Below, piece by piece: positions 4,776 through 35,270 of a stretch of DNA of 64,000 nt (within the stretch, counting starts at the first letter, position 1; each line of letters opens with the position of its first letter). The notes under the pieces are model-generated. The model was not told the DNA's origin. It saw only the letters and a list, made by a program, of their open reading frames with translations, and did no database searches. Where the stretch lies: the NCBI GenBank assembly GCA_014055465.1, contig WIAF01000006.1:1-64000 (forward strand), in the 5' to 3' direction. The position numbers were made by a program, and so were the translations under genes. The stretch comes from Nitrospira sp. CR1.1. GTDB lineage: Bacteria > Nitrospirota > Nitrospiria > Nitrospirales > Nitrospiraceae.

Positions 4776-4804
4776 AGGATGAGTCGGACCCTTATCGGAA
4801 TTTC

Positions 4805-17640: not shown

Positions 17641-18999
17641 TCACATGACGGTACAGGTATCGGCCTGGGTCACGAGAAAATCGGCGACCGCCTGTGTCGC
17701 ACGCCCGTGATTGACAAAGACCGTTTCAGCCAGATTGGGTGCGTGATCCTGCAGTGCCTTACCCTGGAGCGCCTGCTCGATCATGGCACAAAGCTGATTC
17801 GCTGAACCGATTCGTTGAGCCAGGCCTTCCTGCCAGTTCGTTGCCAACTCCGGCCAACCATCGGCGTGAAAGTGCCAGACCGGCTTCTGGTACAACAACG
17901 CGTCCAGCATGGCGGTGGAACAGAGCGAAGCCACGCAATCACAACCATCCAAGAGGAGCGCAAACTCAGGACAATCCTTTGTGATCACCAGATGCGAATT
18001 TGGACGATAGAGCGACCCATCCTCGTTCGGATGGAGGCGCACAATGATATTGATCCGGCCCCGGTATCGTTCCGCTGCGGCCTCGAGCCATTGCACGCAT
18101 TCGCCCGGAGCTGATCCATTCCGGGACAGATCGTTGCCATTGGAGAAGAAGGCAATGGTCGGCTTGTCTTCAAGCGACAGACTCCTGAGCAGCTGCCGCT
18201 TTGCCTGGCCGTTGGGGGCCGGCCGCATAGCATCGTGTCTCGGGCTCCCGAGCGCCTCCAGCCGTCGGCGATCCGTGCCCAGGCTGGTGAGGGTTTCACT
18301 GGAGGACCGTCCCCAGGTGCACATCCGGTCGGCCAGCATCGGAATATAGAACGGTTGCAGCACACCGTGTTGCAACAGGACAGTTCGCATCTGTTTAGCC
18401 TGGGCAGAGACCAAGAGCGCGGCTCCGCCGATCAATTGCGTGGAGGCCGTGACGACCACACGAGGCCTGGTGGCATCAAGAATCTGATCCACTTCATTCA
18501 GGAGGCCCTGTACATCGGCGCAGGCGTTGAAGAACCAACGGGCCAGCGCCGGTTGCGCCAGATTCGTCTCTGCCTGGCAAAGGGCCTCCCAGGCCTGCTT
18601 CGTCCAGGCGGGAAGGAAGAACACACTCGGGAACCGAAGCGTCACAGAGGAAGGAGGCAGATCAGCGGGACCGTTCATCGAGACGAGTCGGACATTCTCG
18701 CCGCGGGAGGTGAGCTCGTGAAATACGGGCAACAACGATTCACGAATCACCTCACGGGTTCCCTCGATCCAGATCAAAATATCGCATGGCCGACACGCGC
18801 CGGCGCTGTGCCCCCGGCGGACCAGAGGGCGGAGCCACTGCTTCGCGGACTCACGCCAGCCAAAGGGTCTCGGCTGGACCAGCAAATCCCTAAAGATGAA
18901 TTGACGCAACGGCTCAAGTTGGGGAAACCGCTCGAAGACCCGACGCGTGTTCGCCGCGAACTCAAGATACCGTTGATCGAGATTCTGCTGTGTAGTCAT
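17641..18999 (-). CDS. GT-B-fold protein, capsule-synthesis glycosyltransferase-like
   Basis: A 452-residue protein that looks like the C-terminal GT-B type of capsule polymerases and CDP-glycerol phosphotransferase relatives. Visible are VVVTASTQLIGG, VLLQHGVLQPFYIPMLAD (the 'HG' loop), VIVRLHPNED and CDCVASLCSTAMLDAL (the 'STA.LDA' donor-site block). These match proteins that bind a nucleotide diphosphate sugar. It shares this architecture with the neighbouring gene at 18962-20443 but is not a close copy. The start overlaps the upstream stop by 38 bases. Product and acceptor unknown. Confidence 0.6.
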   Translation of the reverse strand: MTTQQNLDQRYLEFAANTRRVFERFPQLEPLRQFIFRDLLVQPRPFGWRESAKQWLRPLVRRGHSAGACRPCDILIWIEGTREVIRESLLPVFHELTSRGENVRLVSMNGPADLPPSSVTLRFPSVFFLPAWTKQAWEALCQAETNLAQPALARWFFNACADVQGLLNEVDQILDATRPRVVVTASTQLIGGAALLVSAQAKQMRTVLLQHGVLQPFYIPMLADRMCTWGRSSSETLTSLGTDRRRLEALGSPRHDAMRPAPNGQAKRQLLRSLSLEDKPTIAFFSNGNDLSRNGSAPGECVQWLEAAAERYRGRINIIVRLHPNEDGSLYRPNSHLVITKDCPEFALLLDGCDCVASLCSTAMLDALLYQKPVWHFHADGWPELATNWQEGLAQRIGSANQLCAMIEQALQGKALQDHAPNLAETVFVNHGRATQAVADFLVTQADTCTVM

Positions 19000-20443
19000 A
19001 GGCTCCCGTGGAGGGTGCTTGGTGCTTGCTCAGCTGTTTCAGAAATTCGGCCGTGCGTCTACCGGCCTGACCGTCCAGCGGACCGCAATCTTCGGCACGG
19101 GCGCGCCGGCGCCCCTCGGCCTCCAAAGATGGATCCTCCAGGTAACGATTGATCAGATCGATACAGTGCTCTCCATCATCGGCCAACTGTGAGCTGCCAT
19201 AGGACATCATCTGTTTTGTATCAGAGCGCTTGTAGAAACGCCGCACCGACAGCGCCTCAGGGATGCCTGGAAGCTGATCGTAGTACACATTAACCGTCGG
19301 CTTGTCGAAAATGGCCGAGTCGATGGTCATCGTTCCACAGACATTCACTTGCACGTCCTGGTTCGCCAGGAGAGAGAGGTGCATGGTTTCCTCGTCGAGG
19401 ATATGCCGCACGAGGTGGGCTTCATGTTCCCCCCCTCCATATTCCACTTGGGTCGGACGTGGATAGCTGCGGGCCTCCGGGTATTCTCTCTCCAGGAGCT
19501 TGAGGTTTGACCCGAACATTCTGGGATGGCCGCGGACGAGCAGCTGTGCCCCGCGTGCAAACCGGCCCGCGTGCGCGGCATCGGCCAGGTGCTGTGCAAT
19601 CGCAACCTCATGAGGAATAACCGTGGGCGTGGCCATGGTGTAGAGAATGAGGGGGCGGCTTGGATCGAGTCCGATCAGCGAGAATACCTCCTCTCGCGTC
19701 AGGCGAAGCGATGGATCGAGATGGTGGTCGAATTGCGGCGCGCCCGTGACATGAACCTGATCGGCAGAGGTTTCCGGATACATGGTCAAGAGGCAGTCTC
19801 GCGCCACTTTCGACCACACCAGATAAAGATCGGCGAAGGGGAGATAAGGAATTTTGTGCTGCAGATTGTCGCGGGAGCGGATCATGACGAGAGTAGGAAT
19901 GCCGAGAGAGTTGGCAGCCTCGACGAGGGCCATCTCCCGCGCCCCCTCGGGCGAAAAACTTGCGACGACGGTAGCCCCCGCCTTCCGCAACCGTCGTCGG
20001 TAGGCCTCAGTGATCGGATGTTTCCGCAAGGTCTGGGAGAATTTGGCGCGCCAGCGTTCAGCCAGGCCGCATCGTCCCGCAAGCCAGAACCGCCCGAACC
20101 TACCCGCTGCCCGGCTGATGCTGGCGACCCGGCGCAACGGTTTTGTGCTGTTGTGGCGATAACAACTGAACAGGAAGTCGGCCCACATCGTGGACGGATC
20201 CTGATAACACTTCCGCACAAAACCCACGGAGGAATGCAACCGGTCCAATGCCTGATCATGTCGAACGTCAAACTCCTCGAGCGCCTCTATGAACGTCCCT
20301 TCCGGCTTGGCCGCAAGGGAACCGGGCAATTTGTTCGGATCCACCCAGACCTGTATTTTCGTTCCGGCCAGCCAGCGGCCGAGCTCGCCGGTCCGTACGT
20401 TACGCAAGGCCAAGAAACTGTCGCAGCCGATAATGATGCTCAT
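18962..20443 (-). CDS. GT-B-fold glycan biosynthesis protein
   Basis: A 493-residue protein with a central block LVMIRSRDNLQHKIPYLP, then VTGAPQFDHHLDP, LLVRGHPRMFG and VNVCGTMTIDSAIFDKPTVN. The order 'HG/RSRDN - GAPQFD - HP - T.DSA' is that of GT-B donor domains, related to UDP-GlcNAc 2-epimerase and capsule transferases. Start at 20443 (MSIIIGCDSF) is chosen because the upstream gene ends at 20475 and the open frame further upstream is the shadow of it. No good ribosome binding site is seen. Function beyond a nucleotide-sugar-binding transferase is not clear. Confidence 0.55.
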   Translation of the reverse strand: MSIIIGCDSFLALRNVRTGELGRWLAGTKIQVWVDPNKLPGSLAAKPEGTFIEALEEFDVRHDQALDRLHSSVGFVRKCYQDPSTMWADFLFSCYRHNSTKPLRRVASISRAAGRFGRFWLAGRCGLAERWRAKFSQTLRKHPITEAYRRRLRKAGATVVASFSPEGAREMALVEAANSLGIPTLVMIRSRDNLQHKIPYLPFADLYLVWSKVARDCLLTMYPETSADQVHVTGAPQFDHHLDPSLRLTREEVFSLIGLDPSRPLILYTMATPTVIPHEVAIAQHLADAAHAGRFARGAQLLVRGHPRMFGSNLKLLEREYPEARSYPRPTQVEYGGGEHEAHLVRHILDEETMHLSLLANQDVQVNVCGTMTIDSAIFDKPTVNVYYDQLPGIPEALSVRRFYKRSDTKQMMSYGSSQLADDGEHCIDLINRYLEDPSLEAEGRRRARAEDCGPLDGQAGRRTAEFLKQLSKHQAPSTGAYDYTAESRSTVS

Positions 20444-20474
20444 GAGAACAGACTTATTAGATGAATCATCACAT

Positions 20475-21542
20475 TCAGACGGTTCGCAGGAGTTCCCGTT
20501 CGACCATCTCGCAGATCGTATGCCAGGCGAGCAGATGCAATTCTTGTATGCGTGGCGTCGAATCGGCCGGCGCCCGGAAACAGAGATCGGCATGCTCCGC
20601 AAGGCTTCCCCCGCTGGCGCCGGTAAATCCAATCGTCGCGGCCCCTTTGGCCCGCCCCGCCTGCAAACCACGTATCACGTTTGCGGATCGGCCGCTGGTG
20701 CTGATGCCTGCCACGAGATCTCCCGGTTTGGCCAAAGCGCGGACCTGCCTGGCAAACACATCAGCGAACTCCCAGTCGTTGCCGACAGCGGTGAGAATCG
20801 AGGAATCCGTGGTGAGGGCGATGACCGGCCAGGGCTCGCTTTCACGCAAGAAACGGCCCACCAATTCACCGGCCACATGCTGGGCATCTGCGGCGCTGCC
20901 GCCGTTTCCGAACAGCAGAATCTTATTCCCGGAACGGATGGTCCGCACGAAAGCCTGCATGATTTTCACCAGTGTCGGCAACGACAGCTCAAGGAGACGC
21001 TGATGGGCTTCGAGGCTGTTCTTGACGATCGCGTACATATCCTTTTCCAGGGCACCCGCATTTTCCTCAAACATGTGGATCTGGCGTATCAGGCCACACG
21101 CTTCCGCAACGGCCCCCGCTCCACCGGGTTTGGACAGGATGCGATGCGCAGCGGCTTTGGCCGACGGTGTTGCGTTCAGAGGAGCCAGTCCCAACCCGAC
21201 GTGCCGCAGCGCTGAAGCATCGCGGTCCCCGTCGCCGACGTAACAGAAATCATCGAGCCTGACGTTCAACTCGCGCGCGAGCCCCTCCAGCGCGAGCAAT
21301 TTCTCCTTCACTCCCCGCCTCACCAGATCGCAATTGAAACGGCGCGTCAATCGATCGACGGATGGCGTGTCCTCGCCAGTCACGAAGGCGACCGTAAGAC
21401 CGGCGCGTTTCGCTTGCGTCACGGCGTCAAGGTCCTGAAAGCAAAATCGTTTGTCTTCATCACCGGATTCGGATAGGGACGCCGTGCCATCCGTCAGTAC
21501 CCCATCAATGTCCAATGCAAGCACTCGAATTGTGGTTACCAT
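20475..21542 (-). CDS. KdsC-type HAD phosphatase fused to GmhA-type phosphoheptose isomerase
   Basis: A 355-residue fusion. Residues 1-155 form a capless HAD phosphatase like KdsC, with DIDGVLTDG (Asp11, Asp13), VTGED and the GDGDRD acidic motif. Residues 168-355 are a SIS-domain isomerase closely like GmhA: FGNGGSAADAQHVAGELVGR (Glu226), ALTTDSS, STSGRSANV and the ending ELHLLAWHTICEMVE (His341). GmhA interconverts sedoheptulose 7-phosphate and glycero-manno-heptose 7-phosphate; KdsC removes phosphate from a 3-deoxy-ulosonate phosphate. Linking both beside NeuB and CMP-synthetase genes suggests a phosphorylated-sugar route to a nonulosonate. GGAGGAC precedes the ATG; it overlaps the upstream SDR by seven bases. 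Confidence 0.9.
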   Translation of the reverse strand: MVTTIRVLALDIDGVLTDGTASLSESGDEDKRFCFQDLDAVTQAKRAGLTVAFVTGEDTPSVDRLTRRFNCDLVRRGVKEKLLALEGLARELNVRLDDFCYVGDGDRDASALRHVGLGLAPLNATPSAKAAAHRILSKPGGAGAVAEACGLIRQIHMFEENAGALEKDMYAIVKNSLEAHQRLLELSLPTLVKIMQAFVRTIRSGNKILLFGNGGSAADAQHVAGELVGRFLRESEPWPVIALTTDSSILTAVGNDWEFADVFARQVRALAKPGDLVAGISTSGRSANVIRGLQAGRAKGAATIGFTGASGGSLAEHADLCFRAPADSTPRIQELHLLAWHTICEMVERELLRTV

Positions 21543-22393
21543 ACCGTACGTCCTCCATCCATAATCATATTCGTGCCCGTCATATAGGACGACGCGTCCG
21601 ACACGAGAAACACGACTGCAGCCTTGTATTCATCCTGTCGGGCCATCCGCCCAAGGGGAATCAGGCTGGTCAGACGAGCCACAAATTCTTGGTCCTGCCC
21701 GGTATAGACACCTCCCGGGGACAGGGCATTGACCCGAATTCCATGTTCAGCCCAATAGGTGGCGAGGTATCGGGTCAATCCGATCAACCCGTGTTTGACG
21801 ACAGAATAGCTGACGGGCTTTACTGGTTGTTGATGATCCGGCAGATCCGCGCGGCGATAGATACGCTGATCAGGGGCGATGACTCCAAGATCGGAAGCGA
21901 TATTCAGAATCACGCCCCTGCCGCGCTTCGCCATGTCCTGGCCAATCAACCGGCTGCACAGAAATGCGCCTGTGAGCCCCACGGCAAGGTCTTCATTCCA
22001 GCTCGTCAGCGAAAATTCCTCAAGTCTGGAACTCCCCTCATTCGCGCCCTTGAGTTGCTCTTGTTTCGGATTGCGGGCGGCATTGTTGATCAGAATATCG
22101 ATCTGTCCGAACCGTTTGGTCACCTGCCGGACGGTTCCAAGGATCGACTCCGGCTGCGTGATGTCTGCAGCGAGCGCGACGGCCGGAACGCCGTATTTGT
22201 TCGACACGCGCTCAGCGGTTTCCTGCGCATGGCGCGTGTCGATATCGATCAGGACCGGCGTCCCTCCCATCTCCGCGATCGCGTGCGCGTGTTGCGCACC
22301 CAAGAGGCCTCCGCCTCCGGTGATGACCGCGACCCGGCCGGAGAGGTCGAACCGAGCGCGGACGCCGGCATCCGCAAGATTCCCTGAGCTCAT
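21536..22393 (-). CDS. SDR-family oxidoreductase
   Basis: A 285-residue classical short-chain dehydrogenase. The NAD(P) loop GGGGLLGAQHA, NNAARNP, and the catalytic YSVVKHG (Tyr-x-x-x-Lys) are all present, with the C-terminal MTGTNMIMDGG. Similar SDRs sit in nonulosonate and flagellar-glycan clusters, where they reduce or oxidise a precursor sugar. It lies between the NeuB-like gene and the KdsC-GmhA fusion. GGGAGAAG upstream of the ATG at 22393 is a good ribosome binding site. Confidence 0.85.
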   Translation of the reverse strand: MSSGNLADAGVRARFDLSGRVAVITGGGGLLGAQHAHAIAEMGGTPVLIDIDTRHAQETAERVSNKYGVPAVALAADITQPESILGTVRQVTKRFGQIDILINNAARNPKQEQLKGANEGSSRLEEFSLTSWNEDLAVGLTGAFLCSRLIGQDMAKRGRGVILNIASDLGVIAPDQRIYRRADLPDHQQPVKPVSYSVVKHGLIGLTRYLATYWAEHGIRVNALSPGGVYTGQDQEFVARLTSLIPLGRMARQDEYKAAVVFLVSDASSYMTGTNMIMDGGRTVW

Positions 22394-22423
22394 CAGATGT
22401 CTTCTCCCGTGTGACGAAACGGA

Positions 22424-23296
22424 TCAGAGGCCCACTCGACGCAACTTGTTCATCACCGGCACCTCGCTCGGGTAGAGGCACTTCTTGCCGTCGCCCATAG
22501 CTTTATGGATGGCCCGAACATCCTTTACCAAACGCCACACACCCTGCGGCTCAATCGAAGCCGCTTGATCGCTTCCCCACATAGCCCGATCCAACGTGAT
22601 ATGGCGTTCGATCATGCAGGCTCCCAGCGCCGCTGCGGCAACCGACGTGGCTAAGCCGACTTCGTGACCCGAGTAGCCGATCGGGACGTCGTACCGCTCG
22701 CGCAACGTCTGCAGGGCTGCCAGATTCAATTCTTCCACCGACGAAGGATAGGTGCTCGTGCAATGAAGAATAATGAGATCATTGGTCCCCAATACTTCGA
22801 CCGCATGATCGATCTGCTCGATGGTGCTCATTCCAGTCGAAATAATGAGCGGCCTGCCGCAACTCCGGTGATGCCGTAATAGATTGTCGTCGGTCAGACT
22901 TGCTGAAGCGATCTTGTAGCAGGGCGGGTTGAACTGCTCCATGAAGTCGACCGAAGGTTCATCCCAACAGGACCCGTACCAGAGAATATCTTTCTCCCTG
23001 CAGTAGCGATCGATTTCTCCGTACTGTTCGCGCCCGAATTCCAACCCGCGCTTGAGATCACCGTTGGTCTTTCCAAAAGGATTTTCGCGAGGTTTGCTCA
23101 GTTCCTCAGGCGTATAGACGATCTCAAGCGTCCGCTTCTGGAATTTGACGGCGTCGCAGCCTGCAAGCGTCGCGGTGTCGATAAGCTTCTTGGCGATCTC
23201 AACGTTTCCATTGTGATTAATCCCGATCTCGGCAACTATGAAACAGGGTTGCCCCTCACCCACTGAAAACTTCCCTATCTGAACAGTGCGGCTCAT
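22424..23296 (-). CDS. NeuB-family nonulosonate synthase lacking a SAF domain
   Basis: A 290-residue PEP-condensing synthase. It has the NeuB barrel motifs FIVAEIGINHNGN, CDAVKFQKR, YKIASASLTD, ISTGMST, HCTSTYPSS and GYSGHE. The C-terminal antifreeze-like (SAF) domain present in most NeuB proteins (usually about 340-350 residues) is absent; the chain ends shortly after the barrel. It joins PEP to a sugar aldehyde to give a 2-keto-3-deoxy acid. The strong AAAGGAGGGG site fixes the start at 23296. Its neighbours (acetyltransferase, CMP-synthetase, phosphatase-isomerase) make a complete nonulosonate set. A second NeuB, with SAF, is at 34251-35270. Confidence 0.88.
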   Translation of the reverse strand: MSRTVQIGKFSVGEGQPCFIVAEIGINHNGNVEIAKKLIDTATLAGCDAVKFQKRTLEIVYTPEELSKPRENPFGKTNGDLKRGLEFGREQYGEIDRYCREKDILWYGSCWDEPSVDFMEQFNPPCYKIASASLTDDNLLRHHRSCGRPLIISTGMSTIEQIDHAVEVLGTNDLIILHCTSTYPSSVEELNLAALQTLRERYDVPIGYSGHEVGLATSVAAAALGACMIERHITLDRAMWGSDQAASIEPQGVWRLVKDVRAIHKAMGDGKKCLYPSEVPVMNKLRRVGL

Positions 23297-23448
23297 CGTA
23301 CCCCTCCTTTGTAAAAAATAAGTGTGTCGGCTGTTTGTGACTTGAAGAATAACGGACAACGCATGGATTGGCGCTGAACTGATGGTCCAGCAACTTCTTC
23401 GGCGATTACATCCACGGGTCCGAAGATCGTGGAGGCCTCACCTCGATC

Positions 23449-24033
23449 CTAATTATCCTTGTACAGGCCCTGTTCCCGGGAACTGTCACTGCAGGCGGGC
23501 TTCAACTGGGCATTGCGATAGCGAATGAGTTTTGCCGGATTGCCGGCCACAACGGCATAGGGTTGGACGTCTTTCGTGACAACCGAGCCTGCGGCGAGCA
23601 CGGCTCCGTGGCCGATGGTGACGCCGGGCAAAATGATCACCCGCGTTCCAATCCACACGTCATCACCGATGACGACGGGATCAGGGCCGGTGCCACCCTG
23701 CGCCGTCATCGGGATATCCAGCCTGTCGGACTTGTGATTCGAGGTGATAATGATAACATCCGGTCCCATCATGACGTGCTTCCCCAGGGAGACCGGACCA
23801 TACAATCGGCAGTTAATGCCGAGGCCGGAATAGTCTCCGATGCGGATATTGCGTCCGTCGCCGAAGAAGGCCTTCTGTTCCACGTTGACGCCACGTCCCA
23901 TCTGTGCAAACAACCCGCGGCAGGTCGCCCGGCGGAGGACCCGTGCCCACTTGCCATAACTGTTGTCCGAGGCCGGCAAATGCCTCGCGAATCCATAGTA
24001 GGCCAGAAGGCTCATCAATCGGGTGACGCGCAT
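23449..24033 (-). CDS. hexapeptide-repeat acetyltransferase
   Basis: A 194-residue left-handed beta-helix acetyltransferase. Hexad turns include IRIGDYSGLGIN and VSLGKHVMMGPDV; the late part has DDVWIGTRVIILPGVTIG, GAVLAAGSVVTKDV and VAGNPAKLI. This is the WbbJ/maltose-acetyltransferase group. Lying between NeuB-like and NeuA-like genes, it may O-acetylate the nonulosonate, as NeuD or NeuO-type enzymes do, but the sequence itself does not show the acceptor. About 150 bases separate it from the NeuB gene. Confidence 0.82.
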   Translation of the reverse strand: MRVTRLMSLLAYYGFARHLPASDNSYGKWARVLRRATCRGLFAQMGRGVNVEQKAFFGDGRNIRIGDYSGLGINCRLYGPVSLGKHVMMGPDVIIITSNHKSDRLDIPMTAQGGTGPDPVVIGDDVWIGTRVIILPGVTIGHGAVLAAGSVVTKDVQPYAVVAGNPAKLIRYRNAQLKPACSDSSREQGLYKDN

Positions 24034-24108
24034 CGTGATGAGAGAGAATGGTCGGTCAGAGAGTCGAATCGTGCGGAGCGGCGGTACCGGGCCGCCGGCG
24101 TATGTAAT

Positions 24109-24864
24109 TCAGACGGGATGACGCATCCCTTGTGCGGTAACGCGCTCGCCGCCGTATTGCATCTGATGGAGAGCCTGTTCAACTGCAGGGATGTCCTCCG
24201 GGTAATCGACTTCCAGCAATTCCTCGTTGTGGATATAGGGCAGCGCACACGTTCCCCACATGGACTGCTTCTCAAGAATGGCGCGGGGCCGGATGACATC
24301 TACGTATCCATTCTGCCAATACACAACCGGCAACTGTTGTCGCGGGAGCGATTGGCAGTCCGGCACGTTTTCGATCCGAAGCACCGGCTGCAACTGACCG
24401 GCCGAGTTCACGTGCCACATTTTGTACGGGGTCTGACGGGCGACACTCACCGAGCGGACCGCATCCGCTTCGGGGTGCGACCGCAACAGTTCAATGGCTT
24501 CGTCGATGTGCTCGACGCGACGAACGGGCCCCGGCGGGCGAAGATGAACCACCAACTCGGGTGAGTACCCTTCCTGCTCTGAGAACCAGTTCAGCGCATG
24601 GCGAAACACATCGATATCCGGTGACGCGTCTCCTGCGCACCACTCCGGACGGATGAATGGGACCTCGGCTCCCCACTCCCGTGCGATCTGGGCAATCTCC
24701 TGATCATCCGTCGATACCACGACTCGCTTGATCCATTTCGACGCCAGCGCCTGCAGGATCGAGTAGGCGATCAGCGGCTTTCCCGCGATCGGGAGGATGT
24801 TCTTGCGAGGGACGCCTTTCGAGCCGCCCCGCGCCGGTATGAGCGCCAGTATCGTCGGATCCAT
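24109..24864 (-). CDS. acylneuraminate cytidylyltransferase-like CMP-sugar synthetase
   Basis: A 251-residue NeuA-like enzyme. From the ATG at 24864 it reads LALIPARGGSKGVPRKNI, the nucleotide-binding loop of CMP-sialate and CMP-Kdo synthetases, then VVVSTDDQEI and the LRPPGPVR segment where relatives have LQPTSPLR. It would couple CTP with the 2-keto-3-deoxy acid made by the nearby NeuB. The start codon overlaps the methyltransferase stop (TGATG). A second CMP-synthetase is at 31357-32091, also near a NeuB, so two activated acids may be made. Confidence 0.85.
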   Translation of the reverse strand: MDPTILALIPARGGSKGVPRKNILPIAGKPLIAYSILQALASKWIKRVVVSTDDQEIAQIAREWGAEVPFIRPEWCAGDASPDIDVFRHALNWFSEQEGYSPELVVHLRPPGPVRRVEHIDEAIELLRSHPEADAVRSVSVARQTPYKMWHVNSAGQLQPVLRIENVPDCQSLPRQQLPVVYWQNGYVDVIRPRAILEKQSMWGTCALPYIHNEELLEVDYPEDIPAVEQALHQMQYGGERVTAQGMRHPV

Positions 24865-25769
24865 CAGGCCTTTCTCGCCAACAGGCGAATCCAGGCGCCT
24901 GCTGACCGGTCTTCGTGATAGTGAAAGTGAGGATGCACCCTCCGATCGATCCAGTGCGGAGGGTGATTGAACAGTTTCTGCGAGGCGCGCCGGGCGCCTT
25001 CTCTCATGATATGGCGCCATCCGGTTTCGGGCGTTGTCCGCCCGCAACTCGACACGGCAACAATCGTCATGCCGCTCTCCTGGAAAAGCCGAATCAAGGA
25101 TGCCTGCGTAAAGAACAGCAGATGGGGAAGGTCCAGCGGCGATTCAGATAAGTGTTCCTCATTCGGCACTTCGCAGAACACGTGTCCCTGTTGCGTCAGG
25201 AGGCGCTGAATATCCTTCAGAAATTGACGGGGTCTCGTCAAATGTTCCAGGACATGGGAAAAACTGACCACATCCCAGAAAGTCCTCGTCTCGAAGAGGC
25301 TGGCGTACAGGTGATGCCCTGCTTCCTGTATCTGCCTGCCGCAGCGTAGGTCGGGTTCGATCGCCCCTGTTCTGGCAACCTGTTGCCGGCGGGCTTCGTC
25401 AAGCAGCAATCCATGGCCGGCCCCGATGTCGAGCCAACTTCCCACTACCCTCAGAGATTCCAGGACAAATTCGACTTGCGCACGGGCCCTCACGGAACCG
25501 CCATCCCAGGCATCGGGGCGGGTGTCGTCGCCGCTCTGTCCCCGCTCCGCCCGATAATTTTCCGCGTAAAACGCTTCAAGCTCGTTCTCTTGAGGCAATG
25601 GGCAGGCAAAGGCGGCATGGCACTGTTCGCACGACCGGATGGAGAGTCCAGAAAAAGGGCCCCGCGATTGCGTCGCTCCGCTCCGGTACGGCCGGACAAC
25701 GGCCGTTTCCTGAGCCAAGCATACGGGACAACGGAACGCGGTTGTTTCTTGGAGCATCGTCGGCATCAT
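24864..25769 (-). CDS. SAM methyltransferase with N-terminal zinc-ribbon-like cysteines
   Basis: About 301 residues. The N-terminus carries CPVC and CEQCH pairs (near residues 14-17 and 47-51), as in many sugar C-methyltransferase-like proteins. The SAM domain has SWLDIGAGHG and FSHVLEHLTRPRQFL, then EVPNEEHL, the usual order for this family. It is wedged between the Gfo/Idh and CMP-synthetase genes and translationally coupled to the latter, so it probably methylates an intermediate of that cassette or the sugar after transfer. The upstream GTG at 25823 is an alternative start. Confidence 0.8.
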   Translation of the reverse strand: MMPTMLQETTAFRCPVCLAQETAVVRPYRSGATQSRGPFSGLSIRSCEQCHAAFACPLPQENELEAFYAENYRAERGQSGDDTRPDAWDGGSVRARAQVEFVLESLRVVGSWLDIGAGHGLLLDEARRQQVARTGAIEPDLRCGRQIQEAGHHLYASLFETRTFWDVVSFSHVLEHLTRPRQFLKDIQRLLTQQGHVFCEVPNEEHLSESPLDLPHLLFFTQASLIRLFQESGMTIVAVSSCGRTTPETGWRHIMREGARRASQKLFNHPPHWIDRRVHPHFHYHEDRSAGAWIRLLARKA

Positions 25770-25844: not shown

Positions 25845-26915
25845 TCAGTGGTTGTCGGCGAGCGTGGTCCGTTGATCGGGCGCGAAGGCCACGGGGGCGC
25901 CCCCACGAAGCGACTCGTCGGCCAGGAGAGAGAACCGGAGGCTGCGGACTGATTCCCGCAGGTCGACCAGCGGCTGAGTTTCGCCCCGTAAACAGGCAAG
26001 AAAATGGCGGAGTTCATCCACAAACATCTGATTGCGCTCAAACCCGCGGAACTGGATCTGCTGAGTCGTTCGTGACTTCACGTCATGAAAGACCACCTGA
26101 TTGCTATAAAAGTCATAGTGAACCTTCCCGGCATCTCCGATCACTTCGCAAACTCGCTGCGCAGGCCGTTGCAGGTAGTCCAGGTGAATGTGCACTGGAA
26201 AGACTCCGCCGCGATCCTCACAGGACAGCAGGACACTGACGGAATCTTCGACGTCGAGTTCGAGCCCGCTGAGGTGTCCTCCGACGGCGTACAGACGGCG
26301 AGGCATTCCGAACAGCCATAAGGCATAATCGAATTCGTGTGTTTGAATGCGGAGCGCCCCTCCCCCGAGGGCCCTCCTCGCGGCGTGGCTTTGCCGGTAG
26401 TCTTCATAGGGGTGCCAGTCCGGAAGATACTCCCCGTTCACGATGTGGACGGCAGCGAGCCTCCCGAGACGGCGTTCTTCGAGCAGATTCTTGATCCAGC
26501 GCAACCCCGGATGGAAACGAAATTGATAGGCCACAAAGGCCGTCAGGTTCTTGCGCTCGACAATCTCTATCAGCTCCTCGACCCCATCGAGAGAATCAGC
26601 GAGGGGCTTCTCGATAAACAGGTGACATCCCGCCTTGGCTGCCGCCAAGGCGACTGACAGGTGCAAGCTGTTGGGATTCGTCACGAACACTGCATCCGGT
26701 TTCTGACCCAAGGCGTCATCAAGATTCGAAAAGGATCGGATGTTGTACGTCGACTCCAGGGTAGCGCCTTGCTTTACGGTCATGTCTGCGTTGAGGACAG
26801 GGCTATCGCCGTTAGCCCGATAGGCGAGGATCTCGACCTGCTCGCCCATCAGCGCACGAAGGTTCCGGACATGCCGTTGGCCAATTGAACCGAGTCCCGC
26901 GAACAATACTTTCAT
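25845..26915 (-). CDS. Gfo/Idh/MocA-family oxidoreductase
   Basis: A 356-residue dinucleotide-dependent sugar dehydrogenase. It starts KVLFAGLGSIGQRHVRNL (Rossmann loop), then AVFVTNPNSLHL and the family's catalytic EKPLADS (Lys of the EKP motif). The C-terminal half has the mixed alpha/beta fold. In nonulosonate clusters such enzymes oxidise or reduce sugar intermediates. AAGGGGAG upstream supports the ATG at 26915. It directly follows the FAH-fold gene with a ten-base gap. Confidence 0.88.
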   Translation of the reverse strand: MKVLFAGLGSIGQRHVRNLRALMGEQVEILAYRANGDSPVLNADMTVKQGATLESTYNIRSFSNLDDALGQKPDAVFVTNPNSLHLSVALAAAKAGCHLFIEKPLADSLDGVEELIEIVERKNLTAFVAYQFRFHPGLRWIKNLLEERRLGRLAAVHIVNGEYLPDWHPYEDYRQSHAARRALGGGALRIQTHEFDYALWLFGMPRRLYAVGGHLSGLELDVEDSVSVLLSCEDRGGVFPVHIHLDYLQRPAQRVCEVIGDAGKVHYDFYSNQVVFHDVKSRTTQQIQFRGFERNQMFVDELRHFLACLRGETQPLVDLRESVRSLRFSLLADESLRGGAPVAFAPDQRTTLADNH

Positions 26916-26925
26916 CGTCTCCCCT

Positions 26926-27717
26926 TTACACGGTTTCTGCCGTGGCGTGCCCGCATGCTCCGCAGGCTGCGATCCGATTCACCAACCGTCCGATTCCTTC
27001 AATCTCGACGGCCACCTCATCACCCGGAACTACGGCCGGCTTTGGCGGCGGGGTGCCCAGGGCCACCACGTCGTAGGGTTCCAGCGTCATGATGCTCGAT
27101 ACGTAAACCAGGCACTCCACCACGCCGAATCTCATAGCTGCGGTCGTACCCTGCTGGACGACCTCTCCATTCCGCCGTGTGAGGAGAGTGAACGGACGGA
27201 TCGTGGAGTCGAGATTCAGATAGGGACCCATCGGTGCGAACCCATCCGCAGACTTCTTCACCGCAGGCGGAACCACACGGAGGGTGCTGTCACGACCTGA
27301 AAGATCGTTGACCACTGTCCACCCTAAGATGACACCCGGCGCCTCGTCCTTGGTCAGGTTCCGGCATCGCCGCCGCACGACCACCCCTAGCTCTCCTTCT
27401 GCGACGACCGATCGAAAGACAGGGGGCAGCTCGATGGTTGTCAGGTGACCCGTGAACGATGACGGCGGTTTAATAAAGAACGATGGGTAAGGATCAGGCC
27501 CCAGCGGCTCCTCCCCTGGAAAATTGGCGCCGATCCCGACCAGTTTCGTCGCAGGGACTGGCGGCAGGAACCGGACCTTTGCTGCGGCGACACGCTTGTT
27601 TGTCTTCGTGAACCCGTCGAGCGGCGATCCGGACAAGAGCACCAGGTCGGTTTCATCCGGCGCAGCGTACCAGACCGTTCCTTCCCAACTAATTCGTGCG
27701 ATCCGGTCTTCACGCAC
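26926..27717 (-). CDS. fumarylacetoacetate hydrolase-fold protein
   Basis: About 263 residues from a GTG at 27717, with AAGGCGAG seven bases upstream; the GTG overlaps the preceding kinase stop. An ATG at 27795 would add residues that resemble nothing. FAH-superfamily marks are VGIGANFPGEE, the metal-binding VAEGELGVVV and GWTVVNDLSGRDST, and a C-terminal EIEGIGRL. The family acts on 2-keto acids (hydrolases, decarboxylases and dehydratases such as 2-keto-3-deoxy-sugar-acid dehydratases). A nonulosonic acid is itself a 2-keto-3-deoxy acid, so a step on that scaffold is conceivable. This is inference; FAH proteins are otherwise rare in glycan loci. Confidence 0.82.
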   Translation of the reverse strand: MREDRIARISWEGTVWYAAPDETDLVLLSGSPLDGFTKTNKRVAAAKVRFLPPVPATKLVGIGANFPGEEPLGPDPYPSFFIKPPSSFTGHLTTIELPPVFRSVVAEGELGVVVRRRCRNLTKDEAPGVILGWTVVNDLSGRDSTLRVVPPAVKKSADGFAPMGPYLNLDSTIRPFTLLTRRNGEVVQQGTTAAMRFGVVECLVYVSSIMTLEPYDVVALGTPPPKPAVVPGDEVAVEIEGIGRLVNRIAACGACGHATAETV

Positions 27718-28732
27718 AGACGCCACTCGCCTTGAGAAATTTGATGTTTGCCAGGTGGAGCGGACAGATGTTGTCGATGAAACAGGTGTATTCACCCGTC
27801 GTTCTTACCCGATGCAGGATCCGCAACACCTTTTCGATTTCAATGCCCACCATCGCATGGTGTAAGTCATGAAGAAATTCCGGCTTCTGATGCTCCGCCC
27901 CCGCAAATACTGCAATGGCCTTCCGCAAGACCTCGGGGCTCCGCTCGCGCTGCAAAAAGGCGAACCGCACAATGCTAAATCCCAGACAAGGCAGCCGCCG
28001 GTCGATAATCATGTTGTCGAGATCGATCATGGTCGCCTGGTCTCGATCGTGATTGAATAGCGCGTTCCGCGGATGGAAATCCGTGTGGACCAGGCACTCG
28101 TTAGGCGGCAAACTGGGACGATCGCTGAGCGTTCGTTCCACGGCCCACTCGACAATATCCCACTGGTCGAGAATCCGGGCATAGGCCTGGCGAGCCGGGG
28201 CCTGGTCCTTAAGAAATCCCTGCAGCGTGGGCACCTCGCTTGCGGTCGTACGAAGGGGATACGCCTTGTGAAAACCACTCATCCTCTTTCTGGTTTCCTC
28301 GCTGAGGCAAGCCAGTCCTTCGGCATGAAGTCTACGCAGCGAACTCGCACTGCGTCGGGGGTCCAATTCCGGGTCGGCATATACCCTGCCATTGTTGAAC
28401 ACATAGAGACGTAAGAGATGGCCCTGGTAACGATGAACGAAGCACCCATCGTCACCACGAACGATCTCTTCAACCGGGAGGCCGGCACGATGGAGCTCGA
28501 ATACCGCCTGACCCACGACCTCGAGCCGCTCGGCCACCCCCTGCTGCCCGTAGAGAGCCTGGGGATGAGCCATCACCTTTAACAGGAACCGCCCGCCGGT
28601 CGCCGAGTATTCGAACAGATTATTGCTGACTTGAAACTCAAAGGTGAGCGGGGCGAGCTTGACCGGACGCCCGAGCGAAGCATAACTCGCAGCAAGATGC
28701 TTGATGAGAGCGGTGAACGGAGGTGTCAGCAT
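27710..28732 (-). CDS. APH/choline-kinase-type phosphotransferase
   Basis: A 340-residue kinase-fold protein. Lys52 in FLLKVM should bind ATP; the catalytic loop is VHTDFHPRN (Asp218) and the metal loop MIDLDN (Asp237/Asp239), as in aminoglycoside, homoserine and choline kinases. It probably phosphorylates a small sugar or amino alcohol. It starts inside the stop of the SDR gene upstream (TGATG) and its own stop overlaps the FAH-fold start, so the three are closely linked. A sugar kinase would supply the phosphorylated substrate expected by the KdsC-like phosphatase, but this is inferred from context. Confidence 0.82.
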   Translation of the reverse strand: MLTPPFTALIKHLAASYASLGRPVKLAPLTFEFQVSNNLFEYSATGGRFLLKVMAHPQALYGQQGVAERLEVVGQAVFELHRAGLPVEEIVRGDDGCFVHRYQGHLLRLYVFNNGRVYADPELDPRRSASSLRRLHAEGLACLSEETRKRMSGFHKAYPLRTTASEVPTLQGFLKDQAPARQAYARILDQWDIVEWAVERTLSDRPSLPPNECLVHTDFHPRNALFNHDRDQATMIDLDNMIIDRRLPCLGFSIVRFAFLQRERSPEVLRKAIAVFAGAEHQKPEFLHDLHHAMVGIEIEKVLRILHRVRTTGEYTCFIDNICPLHLANIKFLKASGVCA

Positions 28733-29511
28733 CAGTCAAGCCCCGCATACATGCCGCCATCCACCCGGATGAAATTTCCGGTGAGATAGGCGGCGCGTTC
28801 CGACGCGAGAAAGGCGACCACGTGGCCGACATCCTCCGGCGTCCCCAGGCGCCCTTTCGGGATGCGCCCGATTGAGGTGGAAAGTGCCTCGTCGAAAGAG
28901 GTCTTAAGACTATCGGCCCTTTTCTGAATCAATGAACGTGACCGGGCAGTCATAATGGAGCCCGGCAATACCATATGGACGTTGACGTCATGCGGAGCAA
29001 GCGCGCGGGCAAGTGTGCGGTGCACTGCGGCCAGACCGCCGCGCATGAAGTTGGAAAGATCCAGCCCTTCGATCGGAGCTTTCACAGACAGCGACGCGAT
29101 GGTGATGATGCGCCCCCACCGGCGCGCGCGCATGCCCGGTACGACGCGCCGGATTGCTCTCATCAGGGAGATGGCCTGCTCGTCAAATGCCGTACGCCAG
29201 GCGTCATCGGGCAGATCGAGGATATTCCCTGGCTTGGGGCCACCTGTGTTATTGACCAGGATGTCGGTACCGCCGAAGCGCTCTTCTACAAAACCGAACA
29301 GCCGTTCGAGATCGTCGGATGAAGCCAGATCTCCGGGAAAGATGAGCGCGTCGTGACCGCGTTTGATGAAGCCGGTCCGCGCGGCATCAAGCTTCTCCCT
29401 GGAGCGCGAGAAGATAACAACGCGATGTCCTTCCTCCCCGAGGCATTGCGCGGCGGCGAGACCGAGTCCCTCGGATCCCGCAAGAATGACGGCGGTTCTC
29501 TGTGTCTTCAC
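28732..29511 (-). CDS. SDR-family oxidoreductase with atypical active site
   Basis: A 259-residue SDR resembling FabG-like proteins. The dinucleotide loop is AGSEGLGLA and NNTGG is kept. The usual Tyr-x-x-x-Lys is absent: after Ser140 the expected positions read SNFMR (Ser153, Arg157). A related SDR subgroup has the same SNxxR pattern, so it may be a real variant and not damage. The C-terminal YLTGNFIRVDGG is normal. It may reduce a keto sugar or act non-classically. It is coupled to the kinase gene by TGATG. Confidence 0.8.
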   Translation of the reverse strand: MKTQRTAVILAGSEGLGLAAAQCLGEEGHRVVIFSRSREKLDAARTGFIKRGHDALIFPGDLASSDDLERLFGFVEERFGGTDILVNNTGGPKPGNILDLPDDAWRTAFDEQAISLMRAIRRVVPGMRARRWGRIITIASLSVKAPIEGLDLSNFMRGGLAAVHRTLARALAPHDVNVHMVLPGSIMTARSRSLIQKRADSLKTSFDEALSTSIGRIPKGRLGTPEDVGHVVAFLASERAAYLTGNFIRVDGGMYAGLD

Positions 29512-31356: not shown

Positions 31357-32091
31357 TTAGAGATTTCCACTTCGTTCTAGGGCGATCTGCTCCGACATCA
31401 TGAGTTCGGCCAGCTTGAGATCGAGTTCTGTATCGATACTCACCGATCGTTCCAGAGGCATCACGTAGGGACGAATCGTTTGGCCCCAAATGGACCCCTG
31501 CTCCATCAAGACGCCCCGCCTGGTCAGATAGACCGATCCGTTACGCATGTACGCCGCCGGCTGGTAATCCTGCCGTCTGGTGCCTTCCTTCTCTTCCACG
31601 CAAAACGGCAGGAGGACGTCATTGTCGATGCGCTTCATCAGGATGGGGTGTGTGGCAAAAACCCGCACCACACTGATGACGGAATCACAACCGCCCGCCA
31701 TCCCCAAACGGAGGCACTGCTCAAGATCCGAAACCGTACGAAACGGTTCCGTCGGTTGGAGAAGACAAATCCAATCCATACGGACCGCATCCTGTCTTTC
31801 AATAAACTCGACCGCATGTTGGAGCATGGGAATCATAGGTGACTCGTCGCGAGCCAGATTCGCCGGCCTGAGAAATGGCACCTCCGCCCCATACGCTCTT
31901 GCCACCGCCGCAATCTCCTCATCATCTGTACTCACAATGATGCGGTGGAACAGATGCTGCGCTGCGCGGGCATGTTCAATGGTATGGGCAATCAGCGGCC
32001 TCCCACAGACGGACCGAATGTTTTTGCGAGGCACCCCTTTCGAGCCGCCCCGAGCCGGAATCACTGCCAGTACTTTCTGGGTCCTGTCCAT
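31357..32091 (-). CDS. neuA: acylneuraminate cytidylyltransferase (NeuA-like)
   Basis: A 244-residue CMP-sugar synthetase. The N-terminus has LAVIPARGGSKGVPRKNIR, then IIVSTDDEEI, DWICLLQPTEPFR and the typical C-terminal DTELDLKLAE. It would activate the nonulosonic acid made by the adjacent NeuB. It is coupled to the NeuC-like gene upstream (TGATG) and only two bases from the AsnB start. Sequence is closer to bona fide CMP-Neu/CMP-Leg synthetases than the copy at 24109. Confidence 0.88.
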   Translation of the reverse strand: MDRTQKVLAVIPARGGSKGVPRKNIRSVCGRPLIAHTIEHARAAQHLFHRIIVSTDDEEIAAVARAYGAEVPFLRPANLARDESPMIPMLQHAVEFIERQDAVRMDWICLLQPTEPFRTVSDLEQCLRLGMAGGCDSVISVVRVFATHPILMKRIDNDVLLPFCVEEKEGTRRQDYQPAAYMRNGSVYLTRRGVLMEQGSIWGQTIRPYVMPLERSVSIDTELDLKLAELMMSEQIALERSGNL

Positions 32092-33242
32092 CAGTATGCA
32101 ATCCTCTTCTCTACGGTCAGCGGGACCCGGGCCAGAATTTGCGCAATACGCTCGCCTGCTTTGCCGTCGCCGTATAGAGGACTAGAGGGATACCGGCCAT
32201 TGGCCAGGTGTTTCTCGGTAGCCTCCACGATCTCGGCAGCGTTATATCCGACGTCGATGACGTTCCTCGCTCGCTCTCTGCCCTGCTGACGATTTCCGAT
32301 GTTGACCACCGGAAGACCAAGATACGACGCCTCCCTGATCCCCGCGCTGGAGTTTCCTACGAGACAACGGGCGCCGGCGAGAAGTCGGAGGAAATCCTCC
32401 GGTGTCATATTCTTGAAAAAATAGATCTGCGATGTCTCCCCGGTCTCGCGGAACTGGCGCAGGCCTTTCGAGATCTGATCCGAACCGGCATCCACATTGG
32501 GCCAGAACCAGAAGGTCGGCTGGTTCAACGTCCTGACGGCAGAAATCGTCTCGTGAATCTGCGATGCAGAATCGCGATACTCGGTGGTGACTGGATGTTG
32601 CATGACCACCATGTAGCCTTGGCGCGCGTCGAAGCGGTTCCCGACTCCGGCATAACCCGCAAAAGGGTCAAAGCCATTATCCATGGAGCCTTGAACACGT
32701 TCAGCGAGATCAATGGAAGGACAGCCGGTGATAAAGACCATCTCCGGGTCTTCTCCCATGCGGATCACCCGGTCTGCCGCCTGCCGATTGGCGACGAAAT
32801 GCAGCATAGAGAGCTTCGTCACTGCATGCCGGACTTTCTCATCGATCGATCCCGTGACTTCTCCGCCCTGCACGTGCGCCACCGGAATGTTGAGATAGGA
32901 TGCGGCAATGGCTGTCGCGATCGTTTCAAAGCGATCCGCGACACTGATCACGACATCGGGGCGGATATTGTCGAAGATCGTGGCAAGTTCGACGACGCCT
33001 AAACCGGTCGACTTCGCGGTCGTGATCAGGTTCTCGCCTTCCAGCACCATGTAGACAATTGCGTCCGGTTGAAAGCCGTCGGCGCGAATGACGTTCACAA
33101 CCTCGCCGTACCGTTCCAGCAGAGCCGACGCGGCAACGATGAGCTGGAGTTGAAGATCCGGATGAGACTTGATCGCCTGAAGCACGGTTTTGATCCGGGA
33201 ATAACTCGGCCGAGCAGTGATGACGACACACACTTTCCGCAT
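32091..33242 (-). CDS. neuC: UDP-N-acetylglucosamine 2-epimerase, hydrolysing (NeuC-like)
   Basis: A 383-residue GT-B-fold enzyme. It starts KVCVVITARPSYSRIK and has SVADRFETIATAIAAS, VAHVQGGEVTGSIDEKVRHA (split by the turn at GSIDE) and GNSSAGIREAS, all typical of the NeuC/NnaA group that converts UDP-GlcNAc or UDP-diacetylbacillosamine into a free 2-epimer plus UDP. This provides the aldose for the NeuB at 34251. It is coupled to the CMP-synthetase start. Whether the product is ManNAc or a legionaminate precursor cannot be told. Confidence 0.9.
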   Translation of the reverse strand: MRKVCVVITARPSYSRIKTVLQAIKSHPDLQLQLIVAASALLERYGEVVNVIRADGFQPDAIVYMVLEGENLITTAKSTGLGVVELATIFDNIRPDVVISVADRFETIATAIAASYLNIPVAHVQGGEVTGSIDEKVRHAVTKLSMLHFVANRQAADRVIRMGEDPEMVFITGCPSIDLAERVQGSMDNGFDPFAGYAGVGNRFDARQGYMVVMQHPVTTEYRDSASQIHETISAVRTLNQPTFWFWPNVDAGSDQISKGLRQFRETGETSQIYFFKNMTPEDFLRLLAGARCLVGNSSAGIREASYLGLPVVNIGNRQQGRERARNVIDVGYNAAEIVEATEKHLANGRYPSSPLYGDGKAGERIAQILARVPLTVEKRIAY

Positions 33243-33264
33243 AATGACTCCGATCCGGCTTCCG

Positions 33265-34254
33265 TTAGGCCGGGAGGTTGTGGAGGAATTGAGTCAATTT
33301 ATGAGCCATAAACACTTCCGTTTTACACATGGCTTCATGAGTGGCTCCTCCGATGTGGGGAGTAATCAGCAAATTACGCTGCTGCTTGGCATACACCAGC
33401 AGCGGGTTGTTTGAACGGATGTCGTGGCGGCGTTCCTCCGCAAGCACGTCCAGCGCCGCTCCGCTAAGCCGTCCGGCAACGAGGGCATCCAGCAGGGCCG
33501 CTTCATCCACGATCTGCCCTCGCGACGTATTCACCAGCACAGCGCCTCCTGGAAGCGCGGCCAATTCCGCTCTGCCGATGAGATTCACAGCGCCCGGATG
33601 AAGATTGACGTGAATGGTCACCACATCGCTCTCTGCAAGCAACTCAAGCAAAGACGGTTTGCGCAGAACCGCTGTCGGCCAGGTGTCGATGAAGGGGTCG
33701 TATGCGGCGACACGCATCCCGAAGGCTGATCCGTAGATCGCAACCTGCTTTCCTAACCGCCCGAAACCGACAATGCCGAGCCGTTTTCCTTCCAGATCGT
33801 GTCCCTTCAAAGCGTCTCGATTCCATCGTCCAGCCTGGACGGAATCGATCGCTTCAGGAATGCGTCGCATAAGGGCAAGCAACAATCCCCAGGTGTGCTC
33901 AGCCGTCGCGGTGATGGTGCTCAGAAAAATCTGTTCGCCTTTCAGGCTGAGGACAGGAAGATTCCGTGCCTCTGCCGTCTCGAGATCGATATGGTCGAGG
34001 CCGGTTGTCGCCGACACGATGGCTTTCAGATTCTTGCCCGCTTCGAACACTTCCCGATCGATCTGATGGTGTAGCCGGACGATCAGAATGTCATAGGCTG
34101 AGATACGCTCCAGCAGTTCGCGCCGACACAGCGGCCCGTCGTTGATCTCGCCTAACCGCGCCAGGACCGCACGCGCTTCTCCGCAGTATCCTTCGGGCTC
34201 GAGGTTGAGAATACGATACTGCCCGGGCGGGACATCTAGAACAGGGGTCCTCAT
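33265..34254 (-). CDS. D-isomer-specific 2-hydroxyacid dehydrogenase
   Basis: A 329-residue NAD-dependent dehydrogenase of the phosphoglycerate-dehydrogenase type. The Rossmann motif is LGIVGFGRLGKQV, then NTSRGQIVDE (catalytic Arg), DVLAEERRHD (Glu) and LLITPHIGGATHE (His). The enzyme family interconverts 2-keto and 2-hydroxy acids. Here it lies between NeuC and NeuB genes and its start overlaps the NeuB stop (ATGA). A plausible but unproven reading is reduction of a 2-keto acid related to PEP or to the nonulosonate. Confidence 0.85.
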   Translation of the reverse strand: MRTPVLDVPPGQYRILNLEPEGYCGEARAVLARLGEINDGPLCRRELLERISAYDILIVRLHHQIDREVFEAGKNLKAIVSATTGLDHIDLETAEARNLPVLSLKGEQIFLSTITATAEHTWGLLLALMRRIPEAIDSVQAGRWNRDALKGHDLEGKRLGIVGFGRLGKQVAIYGSAFGMRVAAYDPFIDTWPTAVLRKPSLLELLAESDVVTIHVNLHPGAVNLIGRAELAALPGGAVLVNTSRGQIVDEAALLDALVAGRLSGAALDVLAEERRHDIRSNNPLLVYAKQQRNLLITPHIGGATHEAMCKTEVFMAHKLTQFLHNLPA

Positions 34255-35270
34255 GGCTCGAAATCATCCTGCGAAAAGAGTGTATCTGCCGGGACCATCC
34301 GTCGCAGCTTGCGCCCCAGGATCTCTCCGACTCGTTCGACGGCAATCCCTGTACCAGGTTTCTTGAACGTCAGATGTTCGGATGAAAGAATCGTTCCGGC
34401 AGGAAGGTCCGACATCGCCACGGCGCTTTTGGTAAAGAGGCGCCTGAGCGGCCGCATTTCTTCCGACATTTGATCCTTATCAACAGGGTGATTTCGGGTC
34501 TTCTCAATGAACCGGATCCCTTCGACAAGCTGACGGAGTTCATCGGCGGTCACACTCGCCGGCACGTCCGGCCCGGGCATCTCCCGACTCATGGTCACGT
34601 GAACTTCGAGTGCTTCGATCCCGATTGCTGCTGCTGCCAGGCCGGCATAGATAGTCCCTGAATGGTCCGACAGCCCGACGTGGCAGCGGTACCGGGCCCG
34701 ATACATCGGAATAAGATTCAGGCCGATCTTTTCCGGTGGGCAGGGATACGCCGTCGTGCACTGAAGCAGGGTGGTAGGCGCCTGATGTGTCTCCAAAAAC
34801 CCGACGACCTCGTCGATTTCCGAGAGAGCGCTCATGCCCGTCGATAGCAGGATCGGGATGCCGGATGCGACCATGAACTCAAGCAGCGGGCGGTTGGTAA
34901 TCTCCCCTGATGCGACCTTCCACCCATCCAACCCTACACGTTGCAACATCTGAGCGGCAGGCAGTGAAAACGGTGAACTGATGAACTTCACCCTACGATC
35001 CGCAGCATGGGCGCGAAGACCTTGCCATTGTTCTTCTGAGAATTCCATGCGTCGCCAATAGTCGTAGCGCGTGGCATCCTGGCGACTGAACTTCACCCGC
35101 CAGGGCTCACCCGGCGTGCTCTCTGCTTGCGCAATATGTGTCTGGAATTTGACCGCATCAGCCCCCGCGTTGGCAATCGCGTCGATATAGGCATGGGCCA
35201 ACCCCAGGCTTCCGTCGTGGGCTTGCCCCACTTCACCGATAATGAGACACGGGTCAGTCATGATGGACAA
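34251..35270 (-). CDS. neuB: NeuB-family nonulosonate synthase with SAF domain
   Basis: A 339-residue N-acetylneuraminate-synthase-like protein. The barrel has LIIGEVGQAHDGS, ADAVKFQTHIA, WKVASGEITNRP and LSTGMSA; the C-terminal antifreeze-like domain (about residues 275-339) is present, with AVAMSDLPAGTILS and LTFKKPGTGI. It condenses PEP with the aldose released by the NeuC-like enzyme. An ATG at 35261 is an alternative start. The gene order NeuB, 2-hydroxyacid dehydrogenase, NeuC, NeuA forms one coupled cassette. Confidence 0.9.
   Translation of the reverse strand: MSIMTDPCLIIGEVGQAHDGSLGLAHAYIDAIANAGADAVKFQTHIAQAESTPGEPWRVKFSRQDATRYDYWRRMEFSEEQWQGLRAHAADRRVKFISSPFSLPAAQMLQRVGLDGWKVASGEITNRPLLEFMVASGIPILLSTGMSALSEIDEVVGFLETHQAPTTLLQCTTAYPCPPEKIGLNLIPMYRARYRCHVGLSDHSGTIYAGLAAAAIGIEALEVHVTMSREMPGPDVPASVTADELRQLVEGIRFIEKTRNHPVDKDQMSEEMRPLRRLFTKSAVAMSDLPAGTILSSEHLTFKKPGTGIAVERVGEILGRKLRRMVPADTLFSQDDFEP

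Follow-up and report, generated by a model that had tools for sequence, protein, structure and literature searches.

The window analysed here, a 64,000-nucleotide stretch of Nitrospira sp. CR1.1 (assembly GCA_014055465.1, contig WIAF01000006.1, positions 1 to 64,000), contains a run of genes that probably makes a 3-deoxy-2-ulosonic acid through phosphorylated intermediates, whichever aldose serves as the substrate. The run includes a 355-aa protein (20475..21542) in which a KdsC-type phosphatase (approximately residues 5-154) is fused to a GmhA-type SIS isomerase (approximately residues 169-353). The start of the fusion is overlapped by 7 bases by SDR1 (21536..22393), a short-chain dehydrogenase/reductase (SDR) of the adh_short_C2 family, followed by NeuB1, a 290-aa NeuB-family synthase lacking a SAF domain (22424..23296), a hexapeptide acetyltransferase (23449..24033), and CMPsyn1, a 251-aa CTP_transf_3 protein and cytidine monophosphate (CMP)-ulosonate synthetase (24109..24864) whose best NCBIfam model is PseF (132.3 bits, under cut-off). 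This gene set had been proposed in a sequence-only reading of the window, and was confirmed by open reading frames (ORFs), Pfam and NCBIfam. All five genes lie on the minus strand and are transcribed in the order CMPsyn1, acetyltransferase, NeuB1, SDR1 and fusion, ahead of a 569-aa ORF.

A NeuB synthase, a KdsC/HAD phosphatase and a CMP-synthetase, the genes expected of a phosphorylated route, are all present in this single set. Since a phosphatase acting after the synthase is needed only where the synthase product is phosphorylated, we read the pairing of a SAF-less NeuB with KdsC as such a route, and the fusion of the isomerase to the phosphatase suggests that the isomerase likely feeds it. 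From domain content we infer that the GmhA half would convert a ketose phosphate to an aldose phosphate, which NeuB1 would condense with phosphoenolpyruvate (PEP), giving a ulosonate phosphate; dephosphorylation by the KdsC half and activation of the free acid by CMPsyn1 would follow. SDR1, perhaps with a GFO-type oxidoreductase and the acetyltransferase, may tailor the acid for a surface polysaccharide. The fusion would in this way join the isomerase upstream of the NeuB1 step to the phosphatase downstream of it. A related scheme is described, in the available part of PMC6200933, for 2-keto-3-deoxy-D-glycero-D-galacto-nononic acid (Kdn), made via a 9-phosphate and a phosphatase in Bacteroides and Prymnesium. 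Both the BT1714/BT1713/BT1715 set of B. thetaiotaomicron and the Prymnesium parvum route resemble the present locus in combining a NeuB-type synthase acting on an aldose 6-phosphate with a phosphatase and a CMP-synthetase, and BT1713 is KdsC-like, as is the N-terminal half of the fusion. Unlike here, no isomerase-phosphatase fusion is reported in that part of the paper.

NeuB1, as counted from the ATG preceded by AAAGGAGGGG (a 311-aa ORF in the ORF list begins further upstream), matches PF03102 with 266.8 bits. Its best equivalog model is N-acetylneuraminate synthase, under cut-off, and its score against TIGR03569 (NnaB, of the N-acetylmannosamine (ManNAc) route) is 259.8 bits, below 399.65. 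No SAF domain was detected in NeuB1 by Pfam, or in the six frames of 20400-25100 by a SAF profile built in this analysis from three sequences, and on the latter basis loss of the domain through a frameshift was rejected. The next gene begins 30 bp past the NeuB1 stop.

To place NeuB1 among its relatives, we retrieved 102 hits (E <= 1e-40) from 290 Nitrospirota genomes with flanks of approximately 5 kb, shorter at contig ends; with NeuB1 as the query, the sample leans towards this protein. Copies of the window locus in two genomes (G123 and G129) and a hit lacking a closed ORF (G072, L160) were left out, and four further NeuB ORFs from the flanks, including NeuB2 of the window, were added, for a total of 103. 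Defining SAF-less proteins by a tail of <45 aa and no SAF match, we identified 12, the other 91 comprising 81 SAF-profile matches and 10 unmatched tails of at least 61 aa. A KdsC-type phosphatase ORF was found within 6 kb of 10/12 SAF-less NeuBs, compared with 2/91 of the others (Fisher p=1.8e-10), an association that was unchanged when a multi-locus profile or the genome's stand-alone KdsC-family protein was the sole query. Conversely, NeuC, which makes ManNAc, was nearby in none of the 12 and in 35 of the 91 (p=0.007). Relatives of SDR1 accompanied 8/12 and 6/91, respectively. The sequence-only reading took the missing SAF to indicate a substrate other than ManNAc; the phosphatase and NeuC counts favour a phosphorylated aldose and so uphold that part, but the feature is not special to this locus.

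Phylogenetic reconstruction with FastTree (107 NeuB rows) placed 14 of 16 SAF-less rows in one clade with a local support of 99 (L088 and L146 fell outside), with representatives from Nitrospirota, Pseudomonadota, Bacteroidota and Actinomycetota and with KdsC at 12 of its 14 rows. SAF-less NeuBs are a widespread clade, and the missing SAF is no peculiarity of the window. Four plasmid loci, counted separately, were all SAF-less, three with a phosphatase (L091 without); one of them, L093, has NeuC as well, as part of an adjacent Leg-type (legionaminic acid) cluster. The placement of KdsC varies: it can precede or follow NeuB as a gene of its own, share a reading frame with a CMP-synthetase-like domain (L078 and L146, and probably L093 from a weak blastp match), form part of a single CMP-synthetase-KdsC-NeuB (SAF-less) frame in Nonomuraea gerenzanensis (L092, 8672-10864) or, as here, be fused to GmhA. 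Other neighbours also differ between lineages. A TIM-barrel protein is nearby in 3/12 SAF-less and 0/91 other loci, and the two halves of a transketolase pair in 3/12 versus 0/91 (N-half) and 3/12 versus 2/91 (C-half), a pattern that would fit a different sugar-phosphate supplier for the SAF-less NeuB in each lineage.

Several of these results weigh against the proposed route, or against a ten-carbon version of it. Because the SAF-less counts rest largely on one clade, they do not represent 12 independent events, and the p-value overstates independence. There are exceptions in both directions, L079 and L088 being SAF-less without KdsC, and L089 and L095 having both SAF and KdsC. GmhA is nearby in only one of the 12 SAF-less loci, that of the window itself, as against 2/91 others, and the nearest NeuB1 relatives, L073 (72% identity) and L074 (66%), lack GmhA nearby and have a neighbour of the TIM-barrel type.

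The survey also brought to light further SAF-less modules. In L075, L076, L077 and L090, SAF-less NeuB clusters contain a split transketolase, a class III aminotransferase, SDR1 and KdsC, and may represent a further ulosonate route. A cyanophage-type record (L176, MH319754.1, Kyanoviridae, 3358-6816) carries a 272-aa SAF-less NeuB, 47% identical to NeuB1, in a row with SDR1-like, CMP-synthetase-like and DegT-type aminotransferase genes (by eye), forming a phage-borne sugar-acid module. A 484-kb phage (L175, LR756508.1, 5247-9322) encodes a NeuB of 299 aa that matches the SAF-less proteins in length, has 48% identity to NeuB1 and adjoins ORFs resembling GT29 sialyltransferases and GDP-sugar enzymes (by eye).

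Of 295 Nitrospirota genomes searched, four encode the full-length fusion, the other three copies being 80, 95 and 97% identical (L005 and G123:C27 counted as one record), and dN/dS values of 0.01-0.12 (Nei-Gojobori-type script) indicate purifying selection on each half; in view of this recurrence and constraint, a chance or assembly artefact was rejected. Its phosphatase half scores below the curated cut-offs of three phosphatase models, namely NF058599 (Kdn 9-phosphate phosphatase; 93.7 bits, cut-off 180), TIGR01670 (KdsC; 91.7 bits, cut-off 106.95) and a third at 85.6 bits. The isomerase half is above the cut-off for PF13580 (84.9 bits) and below those of PRK13936 (191 bits, cut-off 276) and TIGR00441 (175.9 bits, cut-off 209.45). 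Another GmhA-like protein, unfused, and a single further stand-alone protein of the KdsC family are encoded in the window genome, which makes the fusion an extra copy of both activities. Among plasmids, 0 of 188 records covered 80% of the fusion; of the partial matches, which include one in Embleya, the two examined, in Afipia and Sagittula, each span separate genes and were rejected as fusions. Within the open-licence PubMed Central literature, no title described a KdsC-GmhA fusion.

Our leading candidate for the aldose, held tentatively, is D-glycero-D-manno-heptose 7-phosphate, which has the same manno configuration as known NeuB substrates and would lead to a ten-carbon acid. Put in full, and with the same reserve, the operon may make and CMP-activate 3-deoxy-2-decaulosonic acid from sedoheptulose 7-phosphate and PEP, with the fusion as the signature enzyme. 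The terms decaulosonic and decaulosonate returned no paper from the open-licence PubMed Central literature. Bradyrhizose, a C10 sugar, was considered as an end product and no link was found. Consistent with a heptose substrate, the isomerase half is up to 48% identical over the domain to GmhA-like proteins and retains the GmhA zinc and catalytic residues H222, E226, Q333 and H336 as well as the phosphate-loop residues S281-S283 and S286 (roles mapped by motif and taken from the available part of PMC5387315). It differs from GmhA of the ADP/GDP-heptose route in being fused to KdsC, in its surroundings, and in 7 of 48 near-invariant columns, 41/48 being kept. These columns were defined from 27 stand-alone GmhA-like Nitrospirota proteins (the 26 best-scoring hits with loci, and the window genome's own). 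The changes are R235S, A240V, I253V, Y257W, A296G, V324A and G340W, of which all but A296G are common to all three fusions aligned. Tyr257Trp and Gly340Trp are near conserved active-site residues in sequence, and a wider alignment with 38 other proteins (27 from Nitrospirota, 9 from plasmids, L084 and L086) has no Trp at 257 or 340 in any of these.

These alterations count against the ten-carbon version of the route, as does the stem of the fusions in the GmhA tree, at 1.52 changes/column where end branches have a median of 0.18, though long branches also occur for certain single proteins (Sagittula 1.14, L084 6.58). The plasmid context of related genes points the same way: on two Deinococcus plasmids (L182 and L183), a GmhA-like gene whose product is approximately 47-48% identical to the isomerase half is flanked by a ROK kinase and an alpha-mannosidase. 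It may encode a mannose-6-phosphate isomerase annotated as a sedoheptulose 7-phosphate isomerase, which suggests that the GmhA family can serve hexose phosphates. All three lines of evidence would fit a Kdn-type alternative with a nine-carbon product, which we regard as rather unlikely. In this scheme the GmhA-like half would have drifted to hexose phosphates, interconverting fructose 6-phosphate with mannose 6-phosphate or acting on another of them; NeuB1 would form Kdn 9-phosphate or an epimer of it, and the KdsC half would serve as a Kdn 9-phosphate phosphatase. NeuB-type condensation of mannose 6-phosphate is published (PMC6200933, in the part available), and the Kdn 9-phosphate phosphatase model, from Bacteroides, is the highest scoring of the three for the phosphatase half. 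That half also has a Glu and a basic residue at the positions of BT1713 Glu56/Lys67, which we take to be involved in specificity; a solved Glu-to-Ala variant (4hgq) was among the structures compared for this site. The pair is not diagnostic, and was dropped as a phosphatase signature, because it is also seen, by eye, in the second KdsC-family protein of the genome.

Other observations speak against a change of substrate. At its catalytic and phosphate-loop positions the fusion agrees with GmhA. Measured along the tree, its closest unfused neighbours are GmhA-like proteins that stand alone, and one of these is encoded next to gmhB. Two proteins of the wider alignment, the Deinococcus pair, have Ile at position 340 and one has Cys, and E. 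coli GmhA presumably has Ile at the equivalent position, so that a bulky residue there need not alter the substrate and position 340 alone decides nothing; V324A likewise recurs in two other proteins. A ManC-type isomerase domain is already encoded by the genome (PF20511 and PF10432 gave no match), and mannose 6-phosphate should therefore be available. On balance, we place the C10 acid somewhat ahead of the Kdn-type C9 acid within the proposed route. The sequence-only reading had inferred heptose 7-phosphate as the aldose and a product outside the neuraminic, legionaminic, pseudaminic (Pse) and Kdn set. The former was not shown, given the altered columns, the long branch and the GmhA relatives in mannose-utilisation operons, and the latter stands unproven, as a Kdn-like product from mannose 6-phosphate fits the same genes.

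Comparison across genomes provides a further test of linkage. Gene order is kept in G129 and G123 for the genes compared, with protein identities of 75-99%, NeuB1 being the most conserved protein of the run (98.6% in both). SDR1 was detected in 4 of 29 genomes of the genus (E <1e-70), the same four that have the fusion. NeuB1 accompanies the fusion in the window, G123 and G129. The fourth genome, G018, has SDR1 and the fusion but gave no match to NeuB1 at 1e-40, and its best CMPsyn1 match is not close (32% over 71 residues). Its single PF03102 match (37.9 bits; Pfam cut-off 22.1) is probably no NeuB, resembling as it does a 36.4-bit match in the window genome that coincides with a DAHP-synthase-family gene (266.8 bits). 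The ORF before SDR1 in G018 looks like a membrane protein and has no Pfam match. G018 counts against a strict linkage of SDR1, fusion and NeuB, and a NeuB-independent role for the SDR1-fusion pair is possible. Such a pair could form a self-contained heptose module, in which heptose 7-phosphate formed by the GmhA half would pass straight to the KdsC half for dephosphorylation, SDR1 would oxidise or reduce the free heptose, and NeuB1 and CMPsyn1 would serve a different product. We judge this to be unlikely, as KdsC and SDR1 relatives accompany SAF-less NeuBs in other genomes without GmhA. Moreover, binning often drops surface clusters. G018, an estimated 99% complete, is in 230 contigs, of which the one with SDR1 and the fusion is just 7.3 kb, such that loss in binning is possible.

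Beyond the five genes, the 569-aa ORF (18962..20671, minus strand) overlaps the end of the fusion downstream; it has no Pfam match and is a possible glycosyltransferase. Upstream of CMPsyn1, Pfam identified a methyltransferase, a GFO/IDH/MocA oxidoreductase of the same gene run (25845..26915, minus strand) that may be a tailoring enzyme, and, also in the run (26926-29511), an FAH-family hydrolase, an APH-type phosphotransferase and a second SDR; this SDR and FAH pair resembles what we take to be enzymes degrading 3-deoxy-ulosonates. Apart from the APH-type protein, the window showed no recognisable kinase, bisphosphatase or nucleotidyltransferase of a heptose-nucleotide route (ORFs by eye; Pfam on 15 window proteins), and we rejected the GmhA half as a remnant of a GDP/ADP-heptose operon. 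The SIS genes of L084 and L086 do seem to lie in such an operon (partly by eye).

A second, ordinary nonulosonate set, comprising CMPsyn2, NeuC, a 2-hydroxyacid dehydrogenase and the SAF-bearing NeuB2 (31357..35270, minus strand), lies approximately 8 kb from NeuB1. Its proximity, and the N-acetylneuraminate synthase and PseF models that score best for NeuB1 and CMPsyn1, would be expected if the run simply made an ordinary neuraminic, legionaminic or pseudaminic acid with the fusion uninvolved. We consider this very improbable: the second set already covers that route, NeuB1 belongs to the KdsC-linked SAF-less clade, and inspection by eye of 13.8-31 kb revealed no NeuC, Leg/Pse dehydratase or aminotransferase, bar an NAD-dependent epimerase-like gene (15897-16967) that appears spread across several reading frames and looks broken.

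The proposed phosphorylated route can also be set against other nonulosonate systems, described here from the available parts of the sources. Animal N-acetylneuraminic acid is made via a 9-phosphate and a phosphatase (PMC3438082), and the animal pathway (GNE kinase, NANS, NANP and CMAS) likewise has adapter enzymes on both sides of the synthase, but starts from an N-acetylated substrate delivered by a kinase and uses a separate phosphatase, NANP (PMC5811610, PMC3438082). The structure 3ewi, whose chain is named N-acylneuraminate cytidylyltransferase, was among the matches of the KdsC domain. In Leptospira, NeuB is fused to a C-terminal endonuclease-/phosphatase-like domain from which its authors infer a phosphorylated pathway (PMC3438082); here too an adapter domain is fused within a nonulosonate route, although the partner is a different one and similar-looking Nitrospirota proteins of 630 aa retain SAF. 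We found five Nitrospirota NeuB-SAF proteins of 626-631 aa with an extra C-terminal part (L080, L082, L084, L086 and L087). In L086, the only one of the five scanned with Pfam, this part is an AP_endonuc_2 TIM barrel, and a GmhA-like gene comes directly after it, with heptose-route-like genes nearby (by eye). For SDR1, a role as a tailoring enzyme is suggested by analogy with Acinetobacter, where EpaB (adh_short_C2) and EpaA (CMP-synthetase/aldo-keto reductase) convert pseudaminic acid to its 8-epimer (PMC12053666). There, as in the AciE 8-epimerisation, an adh_short_C2 SDR together with a CMP-synthetase tailors a nonulosonate, the comparison being by family only (PMC12053666).

Taken together, a SAF-less NeuB with a KdsC-type phosphatase nearby is an apparent genome-readable sign of ulosonic acids made via phosphorylated intermediates. 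On our best reading, the logic of these intermediates is already known from Kdn and animal sialic acid, and the isomerase-phosphatase fusion, which unites the two steps on either side of the synthase in a single protein, is an unusual variant of it. If the substrate is indeed a heptose phosphate, the sugar acids made by NeuB would extend from nine to ten carbons.

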